This document shows positions 676 to 49,778 of a DNA stretch of 64,000 bases, one piece after another. The notes below the pieces were generated by a model. It did not search any database, was not told where the DNA came from, and saw only the letters and a program-made list of their open reading frames with translations. Positions within the stretch are counted from its first letter, which is position 1. Each line of letters begins with the position of its first letter. This DNA is from Methanomassiliicoccales archaeon (lineage in GTDB: Archaea > Thermoplasmatota > Thermoplasmata > Methanomassiliicoccales > UBA472): assembly GCA_026394395.1 (NCBI GenBank), contig JAPKYK010000001.1, forward strand, positions 62,001 through 126,000, in the 5' to 3' direction. The position numbers and the translations under genes are program-made.

Positions 676-751
676 TTATAAGTAATGTCACGCAAATATG
701 TTTCTTCAACCAGCTAAAGGTCCCGACAGGTGGATGGGACCTATAAGGGGG
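676..751 (+). promoter_or_regulatory. Box A promoter and ribosome binding site of the giant surface-protein gene
   Basis: A TTATAAG box A at 676-682, inside the palindrome ACTTATAAGT, predicts transcription starting near 704-706. That is downstream of the first in-frame ATG (698), so 698 cannot be the start on this promoter. GGGGG at 747-751 sits 6 nt before ATG 758. The rest of the 224-base gap between hypB and this gene shows nothing recognisable. Confidence 0.55.
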
Positions 752-757
752 ATTCTA

Positions 758-3700
758 ATGGATAATCGAAGTACTGTGCAAAGTAATATGAATTACAAAT
801 TGGCTAAAAGGGTTGCCTTGTGTATTGGTATACTGGCGTTCGCCCTGGTCTTGCTCCTTTTCTTGGGAGCCGGACATGCCAGCGCTACTGATGTTCCTTC
901 TGGCGATATGACCACTGATACGGTCTGGGCGTCTAATAGCACTTATGATCTGACCGGGACTGTGAACGTAATTGCCAATCTGACGGTCCAAGAGAACGTC
1001 ACCGTGAACATGCATGGCTATGACATAAACGTCTACGGTTCCATGGTCGTAAACGGTGCGGCGGACAACTGGACCATCTTTGATGGTGGCGTATTTGGGT
1101 CAACATACTTTTATGATGGCTCCTCCGGTTCCATAAACTACGCCATGATGGGAAACGCATATTGTGCGCTTGGCATCTATTCCACGTCCGTATCTGTCTC
1201 TAATCTTCAGGTTTACGATTCTTACTACGGACTGGGATATGAGTTCTCTGGGTCAGAGCGGGATATAGCGTTGACGATTACCAATTTGGACGTAAACGAC
1301 GTCACCTATGGCATGTATGCCCAGAACTACAACGGAAGTCTGGATGTGACCATAAACGGAATAATTGCTAACTACACATCCTATCCGATCGAGGTCTATG
1401 CCTGGGATCCTAACTCCACAGGAAGGTTGGACCTGACCGTAACCGACGGCGACTTTATGAATATATATGATTACATAGACATCGAAGCCGACGTCGTTGG
1501 TAACATCGAGTTCAATGGTTGTAACTTCTATAATTTCTACAACAACGATGCCTTGTACATATATGACAACTATGGGGACATGAGCCTGGTCATAGACGGT
1601 GCGGTCTTCGATTATATTTATGGCGATGCCATATATGTCGAGTCGGATGCGCTGGTCGATGTTCAAGTCACCAACTCGGTATTCATCGATGTCGCTGGAT
1701 ATGGGTTGAATCTGTACTCTGAACAGGGCGACATGAACTTCGTCATGAACAACGTAACGATGACGGATGTCGGTGCGTATTACTATTGTGGTGGCTTCGA
1801 TGTCACAGCTGACAATGGCAGCATAATTGCGAGCCTGACCGATGTCCACATAGACTACTCCTGGTGGATCGGAGGGTGGTATGCGTATAACGATGACGGT
1901 ACCGCCAAGGTAAACGTATCGATAACGGATTCCACCTTCAACAACACTGAATATGGGCTTTATATCGTTGGGGAAGCAAGTGGCGATATCTCAGTCACCA
2001 ACACCGAGTTTACTGGTGTTTGGGACGATGCGGCTTTGTATATATACTCCGAGACGTTCCCTGCCCTCAAGGGAGACATGACCATCACCCTGGACAACGT
2101 CCTAATGGACGATGTGTGGATGGGGATCGATCCAAGCGTTGACGGCAACATCAGCCTGAGCATGGAGTCCGTCGTGGTCAACAACACCTACCAGGTGGGC
2201 TGGTTCGTAGCCTCCAACGCTGACAACACTGCGGTCATCGATGTGATGATAAACAACTGCAGCTTCAGCAACGCCACCTATGGCCTGGAGTTCGTTGCCG
2301 ACACGGTCGGTGACTACCAGGTGACCAACACCGTGTTCACCTACATCGATTACTACGCGATTTCCATGACGCTCGACCACGCCGACATGCTCGTTCCCAT
2401 AGAGAACGTGCAGTCGAACTACGTCGGAACGTTCCTGGACCTCCACATCACCTTTGGTAATGTGGACTTGGTGATCACCGACTCGGTCCTGGCCGGCAAC
2501 AACGGCACAGGATTCCTGATCGACGTTTCCGTAAACTCCAACACCCTTACCAACGGGTTCATCACCCTGACCGTCAGCAACAGCACCTTCATGAACGCTG
2601 GCGGCGGTATCAAGACCTGGTCCGAGGAACTGAACCCGGTAGACATGACCACCACCGTATTCGAGAACATAATCGGTGAGTGCATGCACTTCGACGTCCG
2701 CAGCGGCGACCAGAACTTCACCTTTGCTGACGATGACCTGACCGTCATCAACTCTGGTACTGGACTGTGGGTCTACGCCAACGACGGCGACATAAACCTC
2801 AACTTCGATGGTGTATACTTTAACACCAACGACTTCGGGGTCTACGTGGAGGTCAGCTCCCTCAGCCCCGTTAACATGAGCATGATCAACATGGAGATAA
2901 TCGACTCCGTGTTCGAGGGCGGCGACTACGGCATATACGGGCTGTCCCTGAACGGCGGAACGGTGCTTATAAACAACTCCCAGTTCCTCGGGCATTCCGA
3001 GGTTGGGTACTGGTTCGACTCCCTGTATGGAGAAGTGAACGTGGAGATCCTGAACAGCCTGTTCGACGGCTCAACGGACCCCGACATGTCCATATACACC
3101 GTGCAGCAGGTGGACTACGAGTTCGACCTGGTAGGTAGGACCGGGGACTGGGACGGTATCTGGACCTCCGGAGAGCAAACGGTCGACCTGCCCTTCACCT
3201 TCACATATGACAACAATGACTATACCCAAGTCTATGTTGAAGAGGACGGGTGGCTGGGATTCAATCTCGGCAATTGGATAATTCCAATTGGGTTAGGCGC
3301 GCCGTTCGGAAGCACAGACCTGGTCTACAACAACGACCAGTTCTTCGGCTACAAGATAGCCGATGACAACTCGTCGGTCATGTTCACCTGGTACGCTTCC
3401 GAGTCGTACACGGGAACTAGCCTGAGCGATGCCTTCCAGATCATACTATACGCCAATGGCCAGATACAGATCAACTACGCGGCCATGGACTCGTACGCCG
3501 ACCCAGTACCGTTCGGCATCGAGACCTGGGGCATGCTGTACGACATGAAGAACCTGTATGGAATACAGCACTGGGAGACCGACTTCAGCAGCTATCTGTT
3601 CACGCCGGTATACATGTCTGACGGAGCCGGTGTGATGATCACCGCCGAGGAGAGCAACATCAACGCGGTAGTGACCAACAACACCGTGAACGGGTACTAC

Positions 3701-6700
3701 GACGGCGGTATGACCTTCGCAGCTCTCTTTGGTCAACTGAACCTTGAACCCACCGCTAACACCTTCACCAACATCGCCGGTGTGGCCCTGTACGCTTTGT
3801 GCGGGAACAGCACGCTCGATATATCAATTACCAACCAAACGTTCGAGCGCATCTGGGACACCGCTATCGTCATCTATGGATACAATGTGGTCGGCGGAGA
3901 GAACTCGATCAACGTGTCTAACAATGTATTCACCAAGGTCGCCTTCGGGGTCTCCTCCAACCTGTATGTCAACGATATGTACGACCGCACGGGGAACGAC
4001 TCGTTGACCGTCACGGTCAACTTCCAGGACAACGTCATGACCGACGCCTATGGAATGGTATGCTGGGTCAATATGTACCTGTACGAACCGGTCAACTGGA
4101 CCGTTTCCATGCAGACCACCATGACCGGCAACGTCATGACCCAGGAACTTTACGAGGGCGTGTGGCCGTTCATGAAGTCCATGCCCAGCGAATGGACACT
4201 AGGAAGCTGGCTGAGCATATACGACTATTCGGGCACTGCTAGCAGCATAGTCTTAGACCAGACCTCGACCATCACCGATAACAACGTAACTATTCCGTGG
4301 GTCGCTAATGGTGGACTGTGCGCAGGAAGCTACATCAGTAACCCACTCGGTGACACGGCGAAGACCGTGGTGCTGGACGCTTCCAACAACATAGTAATCT
4401 ATGAAGGCAACAACTACATCTATGGTCTGGAAGTGGAATCCTACATGGATGTAGGGTCCGGTGCGATCACCGACGACACCATCATAACCGTGGAGAACAA
4501 CCAGTTATTCGACCTGTCCCAAAGCCTAGATTGGGCTATTGATGCGGAGATGGGTGTGGACGTCAATGATGACGCCGAGAACGCTACAAACGCTGATTGT
4601 GTCGGCTTTATGTCCGTGACCGGCAACCTGATCGATGGTGCCTATTACGGTATATATGCCGAGGCCTGGTATGACCAGGACAACTCCATTGGCGACTGGA
4701 GCGTGAACTTCACTGGACACGTCGACGGCAACCAAGTATTGAACGTCTCATATACCGCAATAGAGGCGGAGCTCTATGGTGGTTGTGGGTTCGGAGCGAA
4801 CTACTGGCCCCTGAACGATGAGGTGGCCGTGGCCAACTTCGTCATGGACTATCTGTTCACGGTGGACGACAACGAAGTATCTGCCACGGGCTTCGTGCCT
4901 TGGGGCTTCGAATACGATGCCATCTACATCGAGGTGGAGTTCTGGGCCGAGGTCGACCCTTCCACTCTCTTCACCGAGGCTAACGCCTGGGTGACCGGAG
5001 CCACCTCTGTGAGCCGCAACCAAGTAACTAGCGTAGACACTGACAAAAACGGAATAGACGTCTACCAATGGATCGGCGCAGAAAAGACCGGAATGATCGA
5101 CGTGAACACGAACGTGGCTGTCGATGATAACGTGGTCGACCAAAGCTGGACGACAGACAGTCACGGACCTGGCCCGGGATATGCCATGTGGGTAGAGAAC
5201 GAGATCGATGTTTGGACCCATGAGGTCATATACACCGACGCACCCCTGGCAACCATCGACCTTAGCATGTCCCTAACGGGCAACGAGGTCACTGGTGGGT
5301 TCAGGGACGGGCTCGTCATCATCGATAACATAGATGTGGAATATGGCATGTCGTCCCTGGTCTATGACCTGAGCCTGGACATATCCGGCAACACCATTAC
5401 TGGTGTCAGCGGAAACGGCATCGACTACCAGCTGCACCGCTACGAGGACTCCATGGGAGTCATCGAGCTGAACATCGCCCTGGCCATCGAGAGCAACATC
5501 GTTACTGACTGCGAAACGGGCATAGCCGTGGACAGCAGGTGGGACGATGATGGATGGGTCTATTCGAGCGATGTATACGGCAAGAATGTGACCTTCGAGG
5601 CGACCGTCAGCGACAACACCGTCAGCGGCGCTGAGTACGGCATGGACCTATTAGGTGCCATATACGTTGAGGAGCCCTTCGAGGACGGATCCGTCTGGAC
5701 CTACGTAAACGACTTCGTGGTGGAGAACAACTACATCAACGCATCCTATGAGGCCATGTACCTCGAGGGCACAATATCGGTGACCAACAACGTCATCGAA
5801 GACTGCGCTTACGGTGTAGACTGGGAGTACGGCGCCGGCGAGCTGGTGGGTAACACCATCAGCGCTGATGAAGCCGTCTACCTCTACTATGCCTACGGAG
5901 TGCTGGTGCAGAACAACCAGATAGAGTTCGTCTACGAGGGTATATATGTCGAATATCGTGAGGATGGATACACCTCCGCGCAGATACTGGACAACGTCCT
6001 GACCTGCGTGGCGGGAGACGACCCATCGACCTACTGGAACACCTATGGAATTGACCTCTACGAGGCCATGGACGTGGTTGTGACCGGTAACGTCATAACC
6101 GGAGCGTATTACACCGTCTACATGGAGGGTGTGATAAACGTGGTCTTCAGCGATAACCAGGTGCTCGGCAGCGAGTACTACGGCGTGCTGATGTACTATG
6201 TCATGAACGCGACGGTAGAGGGCAACACCATCACAAACGGCTACTACGGTCTGTACCTAGAGGATGGAAACCGCGACTTCATCATCGGCAACAACACCAT
6301 CTCCGAGAACTGGTACGATGGTATCTATGTTGACGAGTACAGCTGGAACGTTGTACTCTACAACAACGCCATAACCGACAACGGTGATGGCGTCGAAGCT
6401 AATGCCTGGGGCCCGGGCGAGCTCGTCTGGTACGTGGACGCTAAATGCATGGTGTCCCGCAACGATATCGACTTCGAAGGTCCGATATACGTCCTCAACG
6501 GCGGCTCCATGGTCCTCGAGGACCTGGAGATGTACGTCGATGACGGCGTGACCGTGGAGGAGGGCGGGCTGCTCTCCTTGAGCGATGTCTACGTTGACGA
6601 GAGCTGGTTCTTCGATGTGTCCGGCACCCTATGGGCCAGCCTGAGCACCTTCTATGACACCGACGTGTTCCTTGGTCCAACCGCCTCCGCGGAGATCAGG

Positions 6701-7990
6701 ACCAGCACCTTCACGGACAGCGAGCTGTCGATCGACGGCTGCGCGCCTGTGATCGCTGACAACTTGTTCATCGGATCCGGCTACGGCTACGGTATCGTGG
6801 TGAAGAACGGAGCTGCTCCGACCATCGTCAGCAACATCATCGCCATGTACGAGGTGGGCATATACGCCAACGGCATGGACATGGGCGGCATCTACGACAA
6901 CCTGATCGTGGCCAACTACCACGCTGGGCTGCTGGCGGAGAACTGCACTGGTGGCATACACGACAACATATTCCTCGCCAATATGGTGGAGATACTGCTG
7001 CGTGACAGCGATGTGAGCATTGAGGACAACGAGATCGGCTACACCGACCTGATCCAGGTCATAGCCAACTACGCCCCACTGCTTGGTATGCTGAACATGT
7101 CCGGAATGACGAGCACCAGCACTACCTCCAGTGACCCCCTGGCCAACCTGGATTCCATCCTATCGAGCGGTGGATTCAGCATCGATTCCCTGGCCTCCTG
7201 GGTCAAGACGCACAACGGTATCTGGGCGGAGAGCTCCACCGTGGAGACCAGCGGCAACCAATATGGACTGCTGAACTACGCCCTGTACGCGATCGACAGC
7301 GACGTGACGTTCACCGACGACGTGGGTACGATCGAACTGGTCATACCCTGGTACGTCAACGGTGAGATATTCAACTTCACGGCGAATATCTACACCCTGA
7401 ACGGTCTCTTCGCTGCCCGGTCCAGCGTGCATGTCAGTGACTGCACCATAGAGGTGCTCGACGACGCTCTGATGCTGGAAGCCTCTCAGGCCTGGATCGA
7501 GGGAGTCACTCTGAAAGCGGGCGACTTTGACTACTTCATCTACGGTGGATCGAACGTATACAACATCGGTTCCACCTATAGCAAGGCCAAGGTCGTAGAT
7601 TCCCACAGCCTCAACGAAGGCACCAGGCTCACCCTCCACGCGGTGGACAAGGGCGATCCCGCAGTGAACGTGACCATAACCATCAGGAACGCCAAGGGCG
7701 ACATCGTCTTCACTGGCGTTACTGACGCGGACGGCAAGGTCGAAGTGCTGCTCATACAGTACGCCATCACCTCCGCGGGCAAGGATGACGGATTCAACCC
7801 CTATACCATCAACGCCACCTTCAAATCCGGCGAGAAGTCCATGGAACTGACCCTTAACCAGTCATACCAGGACGCCACCATCGTCGGGGAAAAGGAGAGC
7901 GACTTCGGAGCCCTCCTGGCCGTGATCGGTGTGCTGGTCATCATCCTGCTGATCGTGGCCGCGGTCGTGGTCATGAGGCGCCGGAAGTAA
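758..7990 (+). CDS. Giant membrane-anchored right-handed beta-helix surface protein (2410 aa)
   Basis: A very large exported protein. The N-terminus has a basic stretch (NYKLAKR) and a hydrophobic signal/anchor segment ending in GAGHASA. Then come hundreds of short degenerate repeats with N-rich turns of the type ITNxxVTGN...YGIYAE, typical of PbH1/NosD parallel beta-helix coils. Around residues 787-955 the coils are interrupted by a globular beta-rich block (FDLVGRTGDWDGIW to SYLFTP). The last ~150 residues form an Ig-like or carboxypeptidase-regulatory-like domain (KGDPAVNVTITIRNAKGD), then one transmembrane helix and the stop-transfer MRRRK. The protein probably stands on the outer face of the cell, as an S-layer-associated adhesin or a sugar-binding/lyase-like stalk; no catalytic residues are recognised. 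Start 758 is preferred over 698 on promoter and RBS grounds; ATG 788 is a further option. Confidence 0.85.
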   Translation: MDNRSTVQSNMNYKLAKRVALCIGILAFALVLLLFLGAGHASATDVPSGDMTTDTVWASNSTYDLTGTVNVIANLTVQENVTVNMHGYDINVYGSMVVNGAADNWTIFDGGVFGSTYFYDGSSGSINYAMMGNAYCALGIYSTSVSVSNLQVYDSYYGLGYEFSGSERDIALTITNLDVNDVTYGMYAQNYNGSLDVTINGIIANYTSYPIEVYAWDPNSTGRLDLTVTDGDFMNIYDYIDIEADVVGNIEFNGCNFYNFYNNDALYIYDNYGDMSLVIDGAVFDYIYGDAIYVESDALVDVQVTNSVFIDVAGYGLNLYSEQGDMNFVMNNVTMTDVGAYYYCGGFDVTADNGSIIASLTDVHIDYSWWIGGWYAYNDDGTAKVNVSITDSTFNNTEYGLYIVGEASGDISVTNTEFTGVWDDAALYIYSETFPALKGDMTITLDNVLMDDVWMGIDPSVDGNISLSMESVVVNNTYQVGWFVASNADNTAVIDVMINNCSFSNATYGLEFVADTVGDYQVTNTVFTYIDYYAISMTLDHADMLVPIENVQSNYVGTFLDLHITFGNVDLVITDSVLAGNNGTGFLIDVSVNSNTLTNGFITLTVSNSTFMNAGGGIKTWSEELNPVDMTTTVFENIIGECMHFDVRSGDQNFTFADDDLTVINSGTGLWVYANDGDINLNFDGVYFNTNDFGVYVEVSSLSPVNMSMINMEIIDSVFEGGDYGIYGLSLNGGTVLINNSQFLGHSEVGYWFDSLYGEVNVEILNSLFDGSTDPDMSIYTVQQVDYEFDLVGRTGDWDGIWTSGEQTVDLPFTFTYDNNDYTQVYVEEDGWLGFNLGNWIIPIGLGAPFGSTDLVYNNDQFFGYKIADDNSSVMFTWYASESYTGTSLSDAFQIILYANGQIQINYAAMDSYADPVPFGIETWGMLYDMKNLYGIQHWETDFSSYLFTPVYMSDGAGVMITAEESNINAVVTNNTVNGYYDGGMTFAALFGQLNLEPTANTFTNIAGVALYALCGNSTLDISITNQTFERIWDTAIVIYGYNVVGGENSINVSNNVFTKVAFGVSSNLYVNDMYDRTGNDSLTVTVNFQDNVMTDAYGMVCWVNMYLYEPVNWTVSMQTTMTGNVMTQELYEGVWPFMKSMPSEWTLGSWLSIYDYSGTASSIVLDQTSTITDNNVTIPWVANGGLCAGSYISNPLGDTAKTVVLDASNNIVIYEGNNYIYGLEVESYMDVGSGAITDDTIITVENNQLFDLSQSLDWAIDAEMGVDVNDDAENATNADCVGFMSVTGNLIDGAYYGIYAEAWYDQDNSIGDWSVNFTGHVDGNQVLNVSYTAIEAELYGGCGFGANYWPLNDEVAVANFVMDYLFTVDDNEVSATGFVPWGFEYDAIYIEVEFWAEVDPSTLFTEANAWVTGATSVSRNQVTSVDTDKNGIDVYQWIGAEKTGMIDVNTNVAVDDNVVDQSWTTDSHGPGPGYAMWVENEIDVWTHEVIYTDAPLATIDLSMSLTGNEVTGGFRDGLVIIDNIDVEYGMSSLVYDLSLDISGNTITGVSGNGIDYQLHRYEDSMGVIELNIALAIESNIVTDCETGIAVDSRWDDDGWVYSSDVYGKNVTFEATVSDNTVSGAEYGMDLLGAIYVEEPFEDGSVWTYVNDFVVENNYINASYEAMYLEGTISVTNNVIEDCAYGVDWEYGAGELVGNTISADEAVYLYYAYGVLVQNNQIEFVYEGIYVEYREDGYTSAQILDNVLTCVAGDDPSTYWNTYGIDLYEAMDVVVTGNVITGAYYTVYMEGVINVVFSDNQVLGSEYYGVLMYYVMNATVEGNTITNGYYGLYLEDGNRDFIIGNNTISENWYDGIYVDEYSWNVVLYNNAITDNGDGVEANAWGPGELVWYVDAKCMVSRNDIDFEGPIYVLNGGSMVLEDLEMYVDDGVTVEEGGLLSLSDVYVDESWFFDVSGTLWASLSTFYDTDVFLGPTASAEIRTSTFTDSELSIDGCAPVIADNLFIGSGYGYGIVVKNGAAPTIVSNIIAMYEVGIYANGMDMGGIYDNLIVANYHAGLLAENCTGGIHDNIFLANMVEILLRDSDVSIEDNEIGYTDLIQVIANYAPLLGMLNMSGMTSTSTTSSDPLANLDSILSSGGFSIDSLASWVKTHNGIWAESSTVETSGNQYGLLNYALYAIDSDVTFTDDVGTIELVIPWYVNGEIFNFTANIYTLNGLFAARSSVHVSDCTIEVLDDALMLEASQAWIEGVTLKAGDFDYFIYGGSNVYNIGSTYSKAKVVDSHSLNEGTRLTLHAVDKGDPAVNVTITIRNAKGDIVFTGVTDADGKVEVLLIQYAITSAGKDDGFNPYTINATFKSGEKSMELTLNQSYQDATIVGEKESDFGALLAVIGVLVIILLIVAAVVVMRRRK

Positions 7991-35984: not shown

Positions 35985-36059
35985 GGGCTCGTAGGGTAGC
36001 CTGGATTATCCTTTTGGCCTTCGAAGCCGACGACTGGGGTTCAAATCCCCACGGGCCCG
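35985..36059 (+). tRNA. tRNA-Arg (anticodon TCG)
   Basis: The acceptor GGGCTCG pairs with CGGGCCC with one G-T pair. The anticodon stem TTGGC/GCCGA holds the loop CTTCGAA, giving TCG. The T-arm TGGGG-TTCAAAT-CCCCA is perfect. Discriminator G, followed by CCA (36060-36062). AATCTTATC about 34 nt upstream may be the box A. No intron. Confidence 0.94.
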
Positions 36060-36101
36060 CCATTCCTGTTATTCAGTGGTCCGTTCGCCAAAGGGAAGAA
36101 T

Positions 36102-36266
36102 ATGGAGGGAAACGTCTTGGTACCGTTCACCGCGGAGCTATCCACACGCGCTGAAGAAAATGTCGCTGTGAACGAGACAGATACCGTTAGCGATATATGC
36201 GCGGTTCCGGATACAGTGTTCGTCGACGACGAGGTCGGTTCGTCCGAGCGACCCAATCGACGATAA
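36102..36266 (+). CDS. Small acidic ORF downstream of tRNA-Arg
   Basis: 54 codons, MEGNVLVPFTAELSTRAEEN at the start and ERPNRR at the end; no family is recognised. It is acidic in the middle with a basic C-terminus. GGGAAG lies just upstream of the ATG. It is followed after 16 nt by a second short gene, so both may form one unit. Coding status is uncertain. Confidence 0.4.
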   Translation: MEGNVLVPFTAELSTRAEENVAVNETDTVSDICAVPDTVFVDDEVGSSERPNRR

Positions 36267-36396: not shown

Positions 36397-36595
36397 ACTC
36401 CTTTCGACGGGGCTGACCGGCCTCATTGATTCCATTTTATTCTGCAAGGCCACAGTGCCCGACCGTAAGGCGCAAGTTCAGAATCTCATCCATCGTCCTC
36501 ACTGGTGGACAGCGCTCTTCAACCATTGACCCGGATCGCCCGATCAGCATCGCTTTGTGCAAAAGGGTCATTACCGTCCACTATATCTCCTCCTC

Positions 36596-36850
36596 ATGGA
36601 CCCATCAGTGCTCCTCGGGCTGACCGCCGGTTTCATCACCACCATAGGATTCGTCCCTCAGATAGTAAAAGGGTTGAAGACCGGGAGCATGAAGGACGTC
36701 TCCTTGACCATGCCATTGGTCCTGATAGGCGGCATGTCCATGTGGTTGGTTTACGGTCTAATGATTAGTGATTTGCCAATCGTTCTCTGGAACTCAGTGT
36801 CCGTTCTACTCAACGTGGCGCTCGTGATCCTAAAGGTCCGCAGCATCTGA
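36596..36850 (+). CDS. SemiSWEET/PQ-loop sugar transporter
   Basis: 84 aa with three transmembrane helices: LLGLTAGFITTIGFVPQIVKG carries the PQ motif of the MtN3/SWEET half-transporter, followed by GSMKDVSLTMPLVLIGGMSMWLVYGL and LWNSVSVLLNVALVILK. SemiSWEETs dimerise to move sugars or other small solutes. The ATG at 36596 is used; the 200-bp gap upstream (36397-36595) has no gene but CTATATC at 36581 may be promoter. Confidence 0.88.
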   Translation: MDPSVLLGLTAGFITTIGFVPQIVKGLKTGSMKDVSLTMPLVLIGGMSMWLVYGLMISDLPIVLWNSVSVLLNVALVILKVRSI

Positions 36851-39783: not shown

Positions 39784-40110
39784 CTACCACATCAACATAG
39801 GAGGTTCGGCGGCCGCCTTGGTCACGACCTCCTTCAACTTTTCCAAGGTCGGCACTCCCCCGAAAAGGGTCAGCTTCTCATTGATGAAGAGGGCGGGGGC
39901 CACTGCCGGCCCGTACTTCTTATACAATGGCATTATCTCACCGATGAAGAAGTAATGGATGCTCATCTGGGCCTCGGTGGCGGTCACCATGTCGATTTCG
40001 GCCTCTATCCCGGTCTCCTTCAGCACCTCCCTTATCCGCTCGACGTATTGCTTGTCGTAGGCCGCGGTCTGGGGCTGGCAGCAGGAGGCGGAGAAGATGG
40101 TCAGACGCAT
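39784..40110 (-). CDS. Thioredoxin-fold protein with vicinal cysteines (ArsD-like candidate)
   Basis: 108 aa. MRLTIFSASCCQPQTAAYDKQ places a vicinal CC pair at the position where ArsD holds its first metal-binding cysteines; beta-alpha pattern and VAPALFINEKLTLFGGVPTLEKLKEVV form a thioredoxin-like C-half. ArsD is the As(III) metallochaperone that hands arsenite to ArsA, and this gene follows arsA directly: its start lies 1 nt beyond the arsA stop. It lacks other ArsD cysteines, so a different thiol or redox partner is possible. ATG 40110 has GGAG 6 nt upstream; ATG 40122 is the alternative. Confidence 0.7.
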   Translation of the reverse strand: MRLTIFSASCCQPQTAAYDKQYVERIREVLKETGIEAEIDMVTATEAQMSIHYFFIGEIMPLYKKYGPAVAPALFINEKLTLFGGVPTLEKLKEVVTKAAAEPPMLMW

Positions 40111-40111
40111 T

Positions 40112-41032
40112 TTAGTCTCCATAGAGCTCCTTACCTACCTTCCTCAGACTGTCCATGCCGTAGATATCGGTGTCGAAGAGCGGGACCTGCCTGTTTGGAA
40201 TAGTGGAGAAACGCTGGTCTATCTCCTTCAGATATTTGTCTTGGGTGGCCCGGCGCCTCTCCAGGAACCAGTTGCCCTTCAGGACCTCCCTTGGTATTAC
40301 CTCGTTGATTATGAGCGAACGGACCTTTATGCCGAACCCGCCCAGGTCCTCTATGGCGCGGGCGGTCTCCTCGATGGGCAGCTTCTCTGGCAAGAGGACC
40401 AGGTTGAAGGCGGACACGCTATCGTCGGAAAGACCCTTAACCGACTTGTCGTAGCGCACCTTCTCCGCTTCCAGGTCGGCCACCATGTTCTCGTCATAGA
40501 CGAATCCCAGCACCTCGGACAGCTCCCGGCGGTTCTTGATCTGGTTGGAGATGTAGCCGGACCAGTCGAAGGGCATGGACAGCTCCCGGAGGGTGTGCCC
40601 GGTCGGAGCGGTGTCGAATACCACCTTGTCATGCTCGGTGTCCTCGAAGTAGCTGACGAACTGGTCGAAGGCGGCTATCTCCTCTGTACAAGGCGTGGAG
40701 AGAAGCTCGCTGCCGAACATGGAGGAGAACCCTTCCATCATCCCCTCCAGCCTGGTCTGGAACACTCCCATAGCCTTCTTGGGGTTGATGTTCAGCCCGC
40801 ACAGGTTGCGCTCCGTCCCGATCTTGGTGATGTCCGTGGCGCTGATCTCCTGCCCATATATAGCGGACAGGCTGACGGTGGGGTCCGTGGCTACAATGAG
40901 CGTCTTGTAATCATGGTCAGATAGCCAGGTGGCGGTCGTGGCGGCCATGGTGGTCTTGCCCACCCCGCCCTTGCCGCCGAAAAACAGGAATTTACGGTTC
41001 TCTATGACGTCCCGCATGTTCTCTTGTTTCAT
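40112..41032 (-). CDS. arsA: ArsA/Get3-type ATPase
   Basis: A 306-aa single-domain deviant-Walker ATPase: FFGGKGGVGKTTMAATTATWL (Walker A with the intradimer lysine), TDPTVSLSAIYGQEI (switch I), VVFDTAPTGHTLREL (switch II). Homologues act as As(III) pump ATPase (ArsA) or tail-anchored membrane-protein targeting factor (Get3). The partner protein with CC cysteines encoded next favours metalloid work, but no ArsB pump is in view. It is divergent from the heliorhodopsin gene (133 bp between starts). Confidence 0.9.
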   Translation of the reverse strand: MKQENMRDVIENRKFLFFGGKGGVGKTTMAATTATWLSDHDYKTLIVATDPTVSLSAIYGQEISATDITKIGTERNLCGLNINPKKAMGVFQTRLEGMMEGFSSMFGSELLSTPCTEEIAAFDQFVSYFEDTEHDKVVFDTAPTGHTLRELSMPFDWSGYISNQIKNRRELSEVLGFVYDENMVADLEAEKVRYDKSVKGLSDDSVSAFNLVLLPEKLPIEETARAIEDLGGFGIKVRSLIINEVIPREVLKGNWFLERRRATQDKYLKEIDQRFSTIPNRQVPLFDTDIYGMDSLRKVGKELYGD

Positions 41033-41164
41033 TTGAATCGGGGGAAGAAAGAAGGAACAATAGATATTCTTTTCGAAAATTTAGAACATAGAATGATTGT
41101 TCCTCCGGTTTCGATGGATAACGATTTATAATGAATGCTACAATTTTCGTTGGAGGTTTTCTCT

Positions 41165-41944
41165 TTGGAGGATTCTACCTCAGATGATGTCAAATTCAAG
41201 AAATTGAGACGGTTCAACGCTATAATGGGTGTTTTTCACTTCATCCAGGCGGCGGTGATGTTAGCGATCGCGAACTACGATGTGAAGATGACGTTCACCA
41301 CCTCATACCTTGACGCGACCAACGGCTATCCGCCGACCATCCCGGGATCGCCTGTGGAACTGTTCTCCGTGCCCCTGGGTCCCATGGTGGCCATATTCCT
41401 GCTGATGTCGGCCATAGCCCACTTCAGCGTCTCCACCTTCGGCTACAACTGGTACGTCAAGAACCTGAAGATGAACATGAACAAGGCTCGTTGGTTCGAG
41501 TACGCCCTGTCCTCCTCCTTCATGCTGGTGGTCATCGCCTGGCTCTGTGGAATGTTCGACTTCGTCTCGATAATACTGCTCTTCAGCGTGAACGCCTGCA
41601 TGAACCTGTTCGGCTACATGATGGAGCTGCACAACCAGAAGACGGAGAAGACGGACTGGACCTCGTTCATCTTCGGCTGCTTCGCCGGCATCATGCCCTG
41701 GGTCGCCCTGTTCATGTACTTCACCGGGGTCAGGGGAGGCGGCCCACCGGGCTTCGTGTACGGCATCATGATATCCATCGTCTTCTTCTTCAACATCTTC
41801 GCCCTGAACATGGTGCTGCAATACAGGAAGAAGGGGAAGTACCAGGACTACCTCTACGGAGAGAAGATTTACATCGTGCTAAGCCTGGTGGCCAAGACCG
41901 CCCTGGCCTGGCAGGTGTTCTCCGGGACTATGGTGGGCAGCTGA
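41165..41944 (+). CDS. Heliorhodopsin
   Basis: A seven-helix retinal protein of the heliorhodopsin family, which sits with its N-terminus inside the cell, opposite to type-1 rhodopsins. 259 aa. FNAIMGVFHFIQAAVM (H25), SAIAHFSVSTFGYN (H86), RWFEYALSSSFML (counterion E112), NLFGYMMELHN, GGGPPGFVYGI and LSLVAKTALAWQVF with the Schiff-base lysine K244 match the residues known in 48C12 (H23, H80, E107, K241). It is likely a light sensor or regulator with slow photocycle, not a pump. TTG 41165 is chosen because GGAGG lies 8 nt upstream and box A TTTATAAT at 41125-41132 puts the transcript start near 41154, after ATG 41135. Confidence 0.93.
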   Translation: MEDSTSDDVKFKKLRRFNAIMGVFHFIQAAVMLAIANYDVKMTFTTSYLDATNGYPPTIPGSPVELFSVPLGPMVAIFLLMSAIAHFSVSTFGYNWYVKNLKMNMNKARWFEYALSSSFMLVVIAWLCGMFDFVSIILLFSVNACMNLFGYMMELHNQKTEKTDWTSFIFGCFAGIMPWVALFMYFTGVRGGGPPGFVYGIMISIVFFFNIFALNMVLQYRKKGKYQDYLYGEKIYIVLSLVAKTALAWQVFSGTMVGS

Positions 41945-41967: not shown

Positions 41968-43470
41968 TTAATTCTCTGACCTGAACCTTATGATCTTCCC
42001 GTGGCTAACCAGGCGTCCATTTTCCAGCACGGATATCGCACCATGCCCGCCGCACACCAAACACTTATGATTAGGCCCGGAGCTGATCTCCAGCTCCTCG
42101 ATCAGCCTGATCAGTCCAGCGCGCTCCTGTCTGGCCTTGCCGCTATCCACGTTCACCGTGGTCATGAGGTTCTTGGCCAGGGTGGCGAACTCCTTCCGTT
42201 CCTCGCTCAAGCTGTCGAAGTTGATCAGACTGTCCCCGGTGAATATCACCAGCTCCTTGGGCAGCAGATAGAACACCTGCCCCTGGGTGTGCCCGCCGAA
42301 GCCCTCCAGGACCTCGCATTCCATGCCGGCCACGTCCGTGCGGGCTATCACCATGAAATCCCCCCTGCGCCCCAGTTCCGTCACCGGGAAAGTGCTGGGG
42401 CCGTCGGCCACCGAGAACCCGGAGAACAGGTTGATCAGTTTGGTGTAGATTTCCGCCAGCACCGAACCCTCGCTCTCCGAGCCGTAGGCCCGGTTGGACT
42501 GACGGATCACATCCACGGTATCCAGATGCATCCAAACCTCGGCGCTCAACTGGCCCGCGGAACCGGCGTGGTCCGCGTCGCCGTGGGTCAGCAAGGCCTT
42601 CCGCACCATCCCCATCCCGCCCCACCCCTCGCTCTCCATAAGGCCGTCCAGGTCCCGGAAGTAGATGCCGAACCCGGTGTCGATCATGGTGACCTCCGCC
42701 CCCCTCCTCAGCAGATAGCAGTTCCCTCCGCAGGGCAGCTGCACGCAGAGCAGGTCCACCTGGCCCAGGCCCACCTCCTGCAGGTCAGCGTAGAAACCAT
42801 CGCCGGAGGTCCCTTTCAGCTCCTTCCCGGTGCGCAGCACGTCCGAGAAGGCCTGCTTGGGATCGCTTCCCAGGTTCATGAGCTCCTGCGCCACGTGATT
42901 GACGTCGGAAAGGAGGCGGAGCAGGAAGGCATCCTCGGCCTGGCCTATGATCTGGCGAAGCTCCTGGGCGAAGCGAATGTAGAAGACCGTGTCGTCCAGG
43001 TGCTGCCCGGTGGTATCGTACTCCAAGATCTCCAGCGGATAGCGGGTCTTGAGGTCCTCCAACAGCCGGTCCACTGCCCCGGCCTCCTCCACGGTAAGGG
43101 AGACGGTCAGGCGCTCCGGGTGTTTGCCCCGGTCATCAAAGTCCAGGAAGTCGATGTTGCACTTGGCGGCAGTGGTGAAGTTGAGGAAGTCGAACAAAGC
43201 CCCGCTGCGGTTGGGGAGCACCACCTGGAACTTGAGGAAGCTGGGCAAGATCATCTGTCCCTGGAGATATCCGATGGTCTCCAGCTCCGACCTCATGGCC
43301 TGATACTGATCCTCAGAGCAACGGGCCTCGAAGAAGACCGTGTACGGGTCGATACGCTTGTCGTACTGGATGCGGTCGATGTTGCCGCCGTGCCGCTTGA
43401 CGATCTCCGCGGCCCGGTGCAACGCACCTGGCTCGTCCGGCATCTTGGCGACGAAATAGTGGCGCTGCAT
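41968..43470 (-). CDS. ACT-ACT-metallo-beta-lactamase fusion protein
   Basis: 500 aa. Two ACT domains open the protein (residues ~1-75, HYFVAKMPDEPGALHRAAEIVKRHGGNIDRI; ~76-155, LKFQVVLPNRSGALFDFLNFTTAAKCNI, each read in part), followed by a helical linker (~165-225) and an MBL domain: LLTHGDADHAGSAGQ (HxDxDH), FGGHTQGQ and FTGDSLIN. ACT domains usually sense amino acids; the MBL is flavoprotein/hydrolase-like in type. The combination suggests an amino-acid-controlled hydrolase. ATG 43470 is used because TATAATG lies ~31 nt upstream and the ATG at 43497 lies within it. Confidence 0.85.
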   Translation of the reverse strand: MQRHYFVAKMPDEPGALHRAAEIVKRHGGNIDRIQYDKRIDPYTVFFEARCSEDQYQAMRSELETIGYLQGQMILPSFLKFQVVLPNRSGALFDFLNFTTAAKCNIDFLDFDDRGKHPERLTVSLTVEEAGAVDRLLEDLKTRYPLEILEYDTTGQHLDDTVFYIRFAQELRQIIGQAEDAFLLRLLSDVNHVAQELMNLGSDPKQAFSDVLRTGKELKGTSGDGFYADLQEVGLGQVDLLCVQLPCGGNCYLLRRGAEVTMIDTGFGIYFRDLDGLMESEGWGGMGMVRKALLTHGDADHAGSAGQLSAEVWMHLDTVDVIRQSNRAYGSESEGSVLAEIYTKLINLFSGFSVADGPSTFPVTELGRRGDFMVIARTDVAGMECEVLEGFGGHTQGQVFYLLPKELVIFTGDSLINFDSLSEERKEFATLAKNLMTTVNVDSGKARQERAGLIRLIEELEISSGPNHKCLVCGGHGAISVLENGRLVSHGKIIRFRSEN

Positions 43471-43494
43471 CGTGAAGGGAAAACGAACCCTGCC

Positions 43495-43503
43495 CATTAT
43501 ACC
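43495..43503. promoter_or_regulatory. Shared ATTATA box A between two divergent genes
   Basis: Minus-strand GGTATAATGG lies ~26-31 nt before the leaderless start 43470; the same bases read CATTATACC on the plus strand, with a predicted start near 43526 and a 25-nt leader containing AGGT before ATG 43551. No other box A is visible in the 80-bp gap. Confidence 0.45.
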
Positions 43504-47395: not shown

Positions 47396-48136
47396 GTGAA
47401 ATGGCGCTCCCACCTGTCCATCGGCAAGGCCATAGCCGACAAAATTCATATTTCGGAGGGGGAGAGAAGAGCATTCCTGGACGGCATCGTCGAACCCGAT
47501 CGTCATAAGGAACGGGCAGGTCATGGAGGCGGTTCCCGTCGCCTCAGCCATCACCGAGCGTCCGAACGGCTCATAATGCTCCATGTCTGGATGGCCAGAC
47601 GGTCTTTCCTGAGGAAGGATTCCTACGAAGGCTACCGGCACCTGGGCATGGCTCTGCATTACATACAAGACCGGTCCGTCTCCAAAGGGTTATTAGGGAT
47701 GACCCATGCAGCGCGCGAAGAGCGGTTGACGGAGCAGCCGGTCCCGATGGCAGCGATAGAAGACGGTCTGAAAAGGTACGTGGCCTCGCCGGATTTCATC
47801 CGTCGGTCCGTCTCCCTCACACGACCGAAGAAGGACGTATCCAAGATAATGCTCCAGGCCTCTTTCCGTTCAGCGGCCGTTACCGCTGCGGTTCTGGATG
47901 CCAGTAAAGTTTCAGGGGCCAAGAAGGAACATCGGCTTCTGCGCCGGAAGCACTCTCTCATATACCTGCCGATGGCCATAGGGTCCCTGGCGATAGGCGC
48001 CTCCGTTTCCTGGGTCTGGACCTCACCATTCCCGATACTGGCATCCCTCCCGTTCGTGGCCTTGGCCATATACCTGGACCAACCCTATCGCCGTTCGGCT
48101 CGCTTGGCCGAATGGAACGGAATAGGTAGACATTAA
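47396..48136 (+). CDS. Zinc-dependent phospholipase C-like protein with membrane tail
   Basis: 246 aa. KWRSHLSIGKAIADKI, FLDGIVEPDR, ARRSFLRKDSYEGYRHLGMALHYIQDRSVSKGL show the His/Asp spacing of the S1-P1 nuclease/zinc phospholipase C fold often seen in archaea, though the histidine set is not complete enough to be sure. Two C-terminal transmembrane helices (SLIYLPMAIGSLAIGA, SPFPILASLPFVALAIYL) fix it to the membrane. GTG 47396 fits a leaderless mRNA with TTTAAATAT at -30. Confidence 0.65.
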   Translation: MKWRSHLSIGKAIADKIHISEGERRAFLDGIVEPDRHKERAGHGGGSRRLSHHRASERLIMLHVWMARRSFLRKDSYEGYRHLGMALHYIQDRSVSKGLLGMTHAAREERLTEQPVPMAAIEDGLKRYVASPDFIRRSVSLTRPKKDVSKIMLQASFRSAAVTAAVLDASKVSGAKKEHRLLRRKHSLIYLPMAIGSLAIGASVSWVWTSPFPILASLPFVALAIYLDQPYRRSARLAEWNGIGRH

Positions 48137-48208
48137 GTCCAGGCAAAGGAACCAATGGGGCGAGAAGGATGTTTGATGTGGGCCGGTTCGTGGACCGTTA
48201 CACTTAAA

Positions 48209-49717
48209 CTAGATATCGATGGCCTGGCCTTTGACCGGCAGCACCGTCCTCACCGGGCATAGGGAGGCGAAATTCTCGGGGTCCGCGCAATGCACTGGTA
48301 TGACCACCTCGGGCGAGATCTGCTCCACCACGCGCCAGAGGTGCGGCAGCGACAAGTGCCCCGAGGAATGAAAGCCCTTCTCGAACTCCAACTCCCCGTC
48401 CTTCATCGCCAATCCCCGGCATCGGAAGCCGAACAGGTCTATCCAATTCATCAGCTTCTGCAGGTTGTCCACCTGTTTGAGGTCGTAGGCCTCGCTGTTG
48501 GAGTAAATGTAGGTCCCGCCCTTCCATTCCAGGTCCAGGAGCTTGGTCATGTCCCAGAAGGAGAAGCACAGCATGTACTCGTCCGGGCTCTTGGCTATGT
48601 CGTCGGGGTCGGCCACCTGCCAGCCCTTCTCCCGCAGCCCGTCCACCACGCCCAGGTCAGTCTCGCTGAGCGAGCGGTACACGTAAAGGTCGTCCTTGCG
48701 CACGTTGCCGTCGACCTTGGATATGCTCTCGAGGAAGGCCACGTCCTTGGAGGTGACCACCATCCTCTTGCCCGTGCTCCTGGCGATGGAGATGAACGTG
48801 TCCAGCCGCTCGAAGTTGTTGGCCGAGAAGTCGGCGATGGTCAATCCCTTCCCCTCCTCCACCGCCGCCCGGCAGCTCTCCCGCACCATCGATTCGGTGA
48901 TCTCGGCGTCCTCCGCGGAGCGTCCTATGCGCGTGCCCTCGATCACCAGCGCTTTAGGGGAGAGCTCTCTGGCGGCGTCCGCGAAATGCGCGGTCATCTC
49001 GCCCCGCGAGCCGTGCATCCGGAGGTCCCCGGAATAGACCAGCCAATCGCTCTTCCCCCGGCGCACGGCGAAGGCAGTGGCGCCGTAGACCGAATGGTCG
49101 ACCGGGAAGGCCCGGTATTCGATGCCGTTGATCGTTCCGTCGCCGCAGACCACCTCGGAGGCCGTGCCCTTCCTCCACTGTGGGTCGTCCTCGATGACCT
49201 CGCCGGTGAGGACCCACTTGCGCCCCTGCACCTCCTTGTCCTTGGTCCGAGGGGTGACCAGGACCCTCGATTCCCCCTCCATTTCTTCCCGCAGCACGTG
49301 GTCGAAGAGCTCGGTGGAGGCGTTGGCCTTCCCCAGCTCGCTGTAAGCCCTCAATATGGCGTAGGTCATGGGGCTGGCCACGATGGGGATGTCCCGGCGG
49401 AGGAAACCGACGTTCCCATAGTGATCGAAATGCGCGTGCGATAGGAAGAGTGCGTCCACCCTGACCGGGGTCATATCCGAGGGCGTCAGGTCGCCAGGGT
49501 AGAGGTCAGGTCGATAGCAGTCCAGGGCCGGGAGCATGCCCAGGCGTAGGTAATCCCGCAGCCCCCGGGCCGCCCGCGGCCTGATGAACTCGGCGCAGTA
49601 CTTCTTGCCCACGTCGAACGGTTCGCCGAAATCGAAGAACAACCCGCGGTCGCCCAGGTCCACATGGACCTTGTTGCCGCCGATGACTCCAGCCCCGCCG
49701 TATACCGTGACCTTCAT
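48209..49717 (-). CDS. Beta-CASP/RNase J-like metallo-beta-lactamase protein
   Basis: 502 aa. VTVYGGAGVIGGNKVHVDLGDRG opens the MBL fold, LSHAHFDHYG is the HxHxDH zinc site, AFPVDHSVYGA and LVYSGDLRMHG complete it, and the middle (residues ~230-440) is a beta-CASP insertion. RNase J-type enzymes digest RNA 5' to 3' or cut it internally. The C-terminus is short and it may be an RNase J-related nuclease of unknown RNA target rather than classical archaeal RNase J. ATG 49717 is chosen over GTG 49723. Confidence 0.8.
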   Translation of the reverse strand: MKVTVYGGAGVIGGNKVHVDLGDRGLFFDFGEPFDVGKKYCAEFIRPRAARGLRDYLRLGMLPALDCYRPDLYPGDLTPSDMTPVRVDALFLSHAHFDHYGNVGFLRRDIPIVASPMTYAILRAYSELGKANASTELFDHVLREEMEGESRVLVTPRTKDKEVQGRKWVLTGEVIEDDPQWRKGTASEVVCGDGTINGIEYRAFPVDHSVYGATAFAVRRGKSDWLVYSGDLRMHGSRGEMTAHFADAARELSPKALVIEGTRIGRSAEDAEITESMVRESCRAAVEEGKGLTIADFSANNFERLDTFISIARSTGKRMVVTSKDVAFLESISKVDGNVRKDDLYVYRSLSETDLGVVDGLREKGWQVADPDDIAKSPDEYMLCFSFWDMTKLLDLEWKGGTYIYSNSEAYDLKQVDNLQKLMNWIDLFGFRCRGLAMKDGELEFEKGFHSSGHLSLPHLWRVVEQISPEVVIPVHCADPENFASLCPVRTVLPVKGQAIDI

Positions 49718-49778
49718 GTTCACATCTCACAATGCCTGGAAGGGATTTATCACTATGGCATGCATACTCACCAAGGTT

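Follow-up and report, generated by a model that had tools for sequence, protein, structure and literature searches.

We report a complete, bona fide heliorhodopsin encoded in the genome of a Methanomassiliicoccales methanogen, at positions 41165..41944 (+ strand) of a 64,000-nucleotide stretch of DNA, hereafter the window. We rather favour the reading that this protein is functional and acts as a retinal-scavenging light sensor regulating partner proteins by contact, and not as an ion pump. Heliorhodopsins are a known family whose archaeal members have been reported before; what is new is their distribution and associations within this order. No mention of heliorhodopsin and Methanomassiliicoccales together was found in openly licensed papers, although the bulk GTDB survey (PMC8612252) probably counted such sequences. 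The function of heliorhodopsins in general is still largely open, and a conserved, selected copy in anaerobic methanogens without known retinal synthesis raises the questions of the chromophore's origin and of the effect of light on a methanogen. In addition, natural losses in close relatives (of a photolyase, of an SDR, or of one of two tandem heliorhodopsins) provide ready comparisons for separating the candidate partners.

Starting at a TTG and coding for 259 amino acids, the reading frame is open and complete, and its identity is given by profile matches, alignment and a predicted model. The PF18761 match spans the full protein (E 5.4e-98; 327.6 bits for a cut-off of 26.7) and the NCBIfam HeR equivalog (NF038020) reaches 323.5 bits for a cut-off of 100, a family match far above chance that bears out the intact heliorhodopsin proposed in a first-pass annotation of the sequence. 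This annotation had also placed H25, H86, E112 and K244 at the spacing of key residues in heliorhodopsin 48C12, and the alignment agrees: with residue 1 set at TTG 41165, these four residues (codons 41237-41239, 41420-41422, 41498-41500 and 41894-41896, + strand) correspond to H23, H80, E107 and K241 of 48C12 and to H23, H82, E108 and K238 of TaHeR (6is6 chain numbering minus 6). The two histidines of the Schiff-base cavity (H25, H86), the glutamate counterion (E112) and the Schiff-base lysine (K244) are all present and unchanged in every one of the 59 aligned heliorhodopsins, 39 of which come from Methanomassiliicoccales, as are N106, R109, W110, Y113, S240 and W249, S240 forming with the lysine the SxxxK motif of helix 7.

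The AlphaFold model, built from 36 relatives (pLDDT 89.8, pTM 0.86), shows seven helices, with beta strands formed by the long A-B loop and a helical segment in the B-C loop, and its ten best PDB matches are all heliorhodopsins. An inverted topology, with the N-terminus inside, would be expected by homology. In sequence searches, the best solved relative was TaHeR of Thermoplasmatales archaeon SG8-52-1 (PDB 6is6, 7u55; E 1.3e-75 for 6is6), followed by 48C12 (PDB 6su3, 6uh3). TaHeR belongs to the same phylum, shares the site residues and 49% identity (48-49%) with the window protein, and superposes on its model with a TM of 0.86-0.92 and an rmsd of 1.8-2.2; however, it is not described as coming from a methanogen and falls in a different clade of the tree, several other members of which are extended at the N-terminus by a zinc-ribbon-like segment absent from the window protein. 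This CxxC...CxxC extension was observed in the TaHeR-clade heliorhodopsins of family f33 (L019, L023, L029, L032-L034, L036, L038, L040) and is of a kind already published for Thermoplasmatales (PMC8612252). 48C12 has the same fold and site residues at 48% identity, but is bacterial, and its long branch in the tree lies outside the archaeal clades.

The TTG at 41165 is likely the true start, the alternative being an in-frame ATG at 41135, because the extension (41135..41164, + strand) would include the GGAGGT ribosome-binding site lying upstream of the TTG (~41152-41157) and because the starts of relatives agree: the nearest, OWC_0010, has GGAGG and TTG at the same place, and in others an ATG, TTG or GTG falls close to this position. 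A TATA-box-like TTTATAA lies at ~41125. As the gene is divergent from an ArsA/Get3-family ATPase gene (40112..41032, - strand) and convergent with a gene for an ACT and metallo-beta-lactamase domain protein (41968..43497, - strand), it probably forms its own transcription unit. The ATPase gene, kept in the family and not found at the heliorhodopsin loci of other families, is overlapped by the gene of a Thioredoxin_3-like protein (39784..40122, - strand), which lies in the same syntenic block, as does the metallo-beta-lactamase domain gene.

The host had been described from the sequence as anaerobic and Thermoplasmatota-like, and a light-responsive protein in it as surprising; both points hold, the host being an mcrA-bearing methanogen, which is more unexpected still. 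All nine nearest loci in GTDB genomes belong to Methanomassiliicoccales, and mcrA was found in the window's genome (G000:C5; size 1.64 Mb, completeness 99.85%) and, counting it, in 26 of the 30 heliorhodopsin-positive genomes of the order that were examined. Contamination is an unlikely source of the heliorhodopsin gene, since it lies on a contig of 438 kb and shares synteny with its own genus. The genome also holds a catalase gene (G000:C3:12517-13665), suggesting some exposure to oxygen.

The first-pass annotation had pointed to a retinal-synthesis gene such as blh elsewhere in the genome, and here the outcome was negative: in profile searches, known carotenoid and retinal synthesis is absent from the window's genome. 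Blh/BCD (PF15461) gave no match above cut-off in 42 heliorhodopsin-positive genomes and RPE65-type cleavage enzymes (PF03055) none in 30, the window's genome being included in both sets, and phytoene synthase (PF00494), above cut-off in 9 of the 42, is absent from this ~99.9% complete genome. Weak, partial PF15461 matches below cut-off in seven relatives were left out of the count. The chromophore would therefore have to be scavenged, or made by a route not yet known. Retinal synthesis is reportedly missing from the host of TaHeR as well, and uptake has been proposed to occur through an opening that faces the membrane near the retinal ring (PMC9385722).

Within Methanomassiliicoccales, 39 of 147 genomes gave a heliorhodopsin match in the profile search, 38 of them exceeding the curated cut-off and some of them partial; PF18761 exceeded its cut-off in 46 of 390 Thermoplasmatota genomes. 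With such numbers, and crystal structures available for TaHeR from Thermoplasmatales, the earlier statement that heliorhodopsins have been reported in few archaeal groups is only partly fair. The tree placed the window protein in a supported heliorhodopsin clade (100/99), one of several into which the sequences of the order split; genera of family f1 are joined there by g8 and g14, which belong to family f2. Heliorhodopsin identity is about as high across the two families (78-80%) as within the window's genus (79-88%), whereas McrA identity drops from 93-95% within the genus to 71-76% between the genus and f2; this comparison supports horizontal transfer of the heliorhodopsin gene between f1 and f2. 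Two genomes of the window's genus hold a tandem pair of different heliorhodopsins (L059 6993-8781; L060 6784-8488) that fall in two different clades of the tree, one paralogue being kept in the window's genome and OWC_0010, the other in G221. The host-associated clade of the order includes RumEn M2 (PMC7824343), which carries a heliorhodopsin gene.

Across the order, heliorhodopsin was strongly associated with class II photolyase, a DNA-repair enzyme driven by light, and with an SDR, and weakly with catalase, chosen to control for life in contact with air. In tests that ignore phylogeny, and with many genomes incomplete, class II photolyase (TIGR00591) was found in 23 of the 39 genomes with heliorhodopsin against 5 of the 108 without (odds ratio 30, p 4e-12) and in 10 of 16 heliorhodopsin genera against 0 of 14 others (p 3e-4), all ten photolyase genera of the order being heliorhodopsin genera, while catalase was found in 17/39 against 22/108 genomes (genus p 0.46). 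Such co-occurrence partly reflects shared ancestry and habitat. Of the light, redox or retinal-related regulator suggested earlier, the co-occurrence with photolyase supports the light-sensing part. A search of the order with PF03441 was discarded as misleading: it gave no match over cut-off because class II enzymes score poorly with this model, whereas TIGR00591 detected 28.

In six f1 genomes, the photolyase gene lies ~4-7 kb downstream of heliorhodopsin, probably a single ancestral arrangement in the family. Sister genomes hold it intact between two conserved genes (clusters c9 and c31), whose counterparts in the window (47396..48136, + strand, and 48209..49723, - strand) are separated by 72 bp encoding TNGARRMFDVGRFVDRYT and a stop codon, that is the last ~18 codons of the photolyase (48151..48207, + strand; 0 of 5000 shuffles scored as high). 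No class II photolyase was detected elsewhere in the window's genome at E<=1e-20: the gene has been deleted. The heliorhodopsin of Trichococcus flocculiformis, TfHeR, likewise has a linked class II CPD photolyase (TfPHR), which it binds and stimulates (PMC9769723), but the genes of the methanogen family are 4-7 kb apart and not in one operon, and the window, instead of a photolyase in the same operon or close by, has the C-terminal scar only. Between the window and its nearest relative OWC_0010, neither with a detected photolyase, the heliorhodopsin dN/dS is 0.10: the gene is still under purifying selection, although part of the divergence may predate the photolyase loss. Besides the window's genome, fifteen heliorhodopsin-positive genomes of the order, some incomplete, have no detected photolyase, including all five of g8 and g14. 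G083, a heliorhodopsin-negative genome of the same genus, was rejected as a clean loss, its photolyase contig ending before the expected heliorhodopsin position.

A gene-neighbourhood table built with a simple home-made gene caller revealed, in three contexts within the order, a SemiSWEET homologue adjoining heliorhodopsin or close to it. In g14, an SDR, SemiSWEET and heliorhodopsin share a strand and follow each other, SemiSWEET lying 20-30 bp from the SDR and heliorhodopsin another ~220-270 bp further on; g8 has an Fe-S gene of opposite strand between SemiSWEET and heliorhodopsin; and in G062, of the window's genus, these four genes recur in the order and orientation of g8 with other genes interspersed. 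The SDR-SemiSWEET-heliorhodopsin block has apparently passed between families. Of its genes, the window retains only heliorhodopsin and the SemiSWEET / PQ-loop small membrane transporter (36557..36850, + strand; NF037968), 4.3 kb apart with seven other genes between. The PRK06197-group SDR was detected in 26 of 39 heliorhodopsin-positive against 6 of 108 negative genomes, and in 10 of 16 against 2 of 14 genera (p 0.01), statistics that ignore kinship and include many incomplete genomes; none was found in the window's genome at E<=1e-40. An apparent SDR scar at 36014-36148 was not retained because it overlaps a tRNA-Arg (35985-36062) whose counterpart in G062 adjoins the SDR. An SDR group is already published among heliorhodopsin neighbours (PMC11109279), and an SDR likewise stands beside heliorhodopsin in g8, g14 and G397 (~40 bp downstream in the latter); by contrast, SemiSWEET is intercalated in g8 and g14, and this SDR is absent from the window's genome. 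In family f3, an SDR follows, by ~40 bp on the same strand, a heliorhodopsin of a different clade (L079 6514-8071).

Light sensing seems to us somewhat the better supported role for the window heliorhodopsin. The methanogen would most likely take up ready-made retinal from its surroundings and, as its residues suggest, bind it at K244 with E112 as counterion; a slow photocycle would alter the cytoplasmic face of the protein, which may then modulate partner proteins through direct contact. Such a contact sensor appears likelier than a pump by analogy with family precedents, heliorhodopsins regulating glutamine synthetase (PMC9529153) and an ABC transporter (PMC11109279) in addition to the Trichococcus photolyase (PMC9769723). 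Linkage hints that the class II CPD photolyase, encoded a few kb away, was probably the ancestral partner in the lineage; as this gene is deleted, heliorhodopsin would have to serve another partner now, for which the SemiSWEET-type transporter (36557-36850) is the best candidate, though any partner named for this organism is a guess. Against light sensing stand the lack of a retinal source in the organism and the presence of the gene in RumEn M2, animal guts being dark.

These last observations would fit a protein that, independently of light, senses, stores or detoxifies retinal or some similar lipid aldehyde, partnered with the SDR of relatives, whose co-occurrence with heliorhodopsin and position in g8, g14 and G397 also speak for it. 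We nevertheless hold this unlikely, as the SDR is absent from the window's genome at E<=1e-40, the counterion and Schiff-base network is invariant, and the association with photolyase points to light. The published helper role in Trichococcus (PMC9769723), the scar and the absence of another class II photolyase at E<=1e-20 would suit a heliorhodopsin that was only a photolyase helper and is here a leftover on its way out; yet the gene is intact with all retinal-site residues kept, its dN/dS to the photolyase-less OWC_0010 is low (with the reservation made above on divergence before the loss), and 15 other genomes, some incomplete, carry heliorhodopsin with no photolyase detected, making this quite improbable. 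Light-driven proton movement has a precedent within the family in the viral proton transporter V2HeR3 (PMC9448325), but the closest solved relatives, TaHeR and 48C12, are not described as transporters and TfHeR is reported not to pump ions (PMC9769723), so we give it very slight credence.

The light-sensor reading also has a bolder form, to which we grant a small chance: the methanogen heliorhodopsin would belong to a transferable photosensory block, in which the SDR makes retinal from scavenged retinol without oxygen and light-activated heliorhodopsin controls SemiSWEET. If true, this would imply light-dependent behaviour in a strict anaerobe.

Two minor observations complete the survey. In another genome of the same family, with no heliorhodopsin detected, a SemiSWEET gene lies 1.8 kb from a class II photolyase (L154 9144-12492). 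Within the window, positions 698-7990 encode a 2430-amino-acid protein with right-handed beta-helix (NosD-like) repeats.
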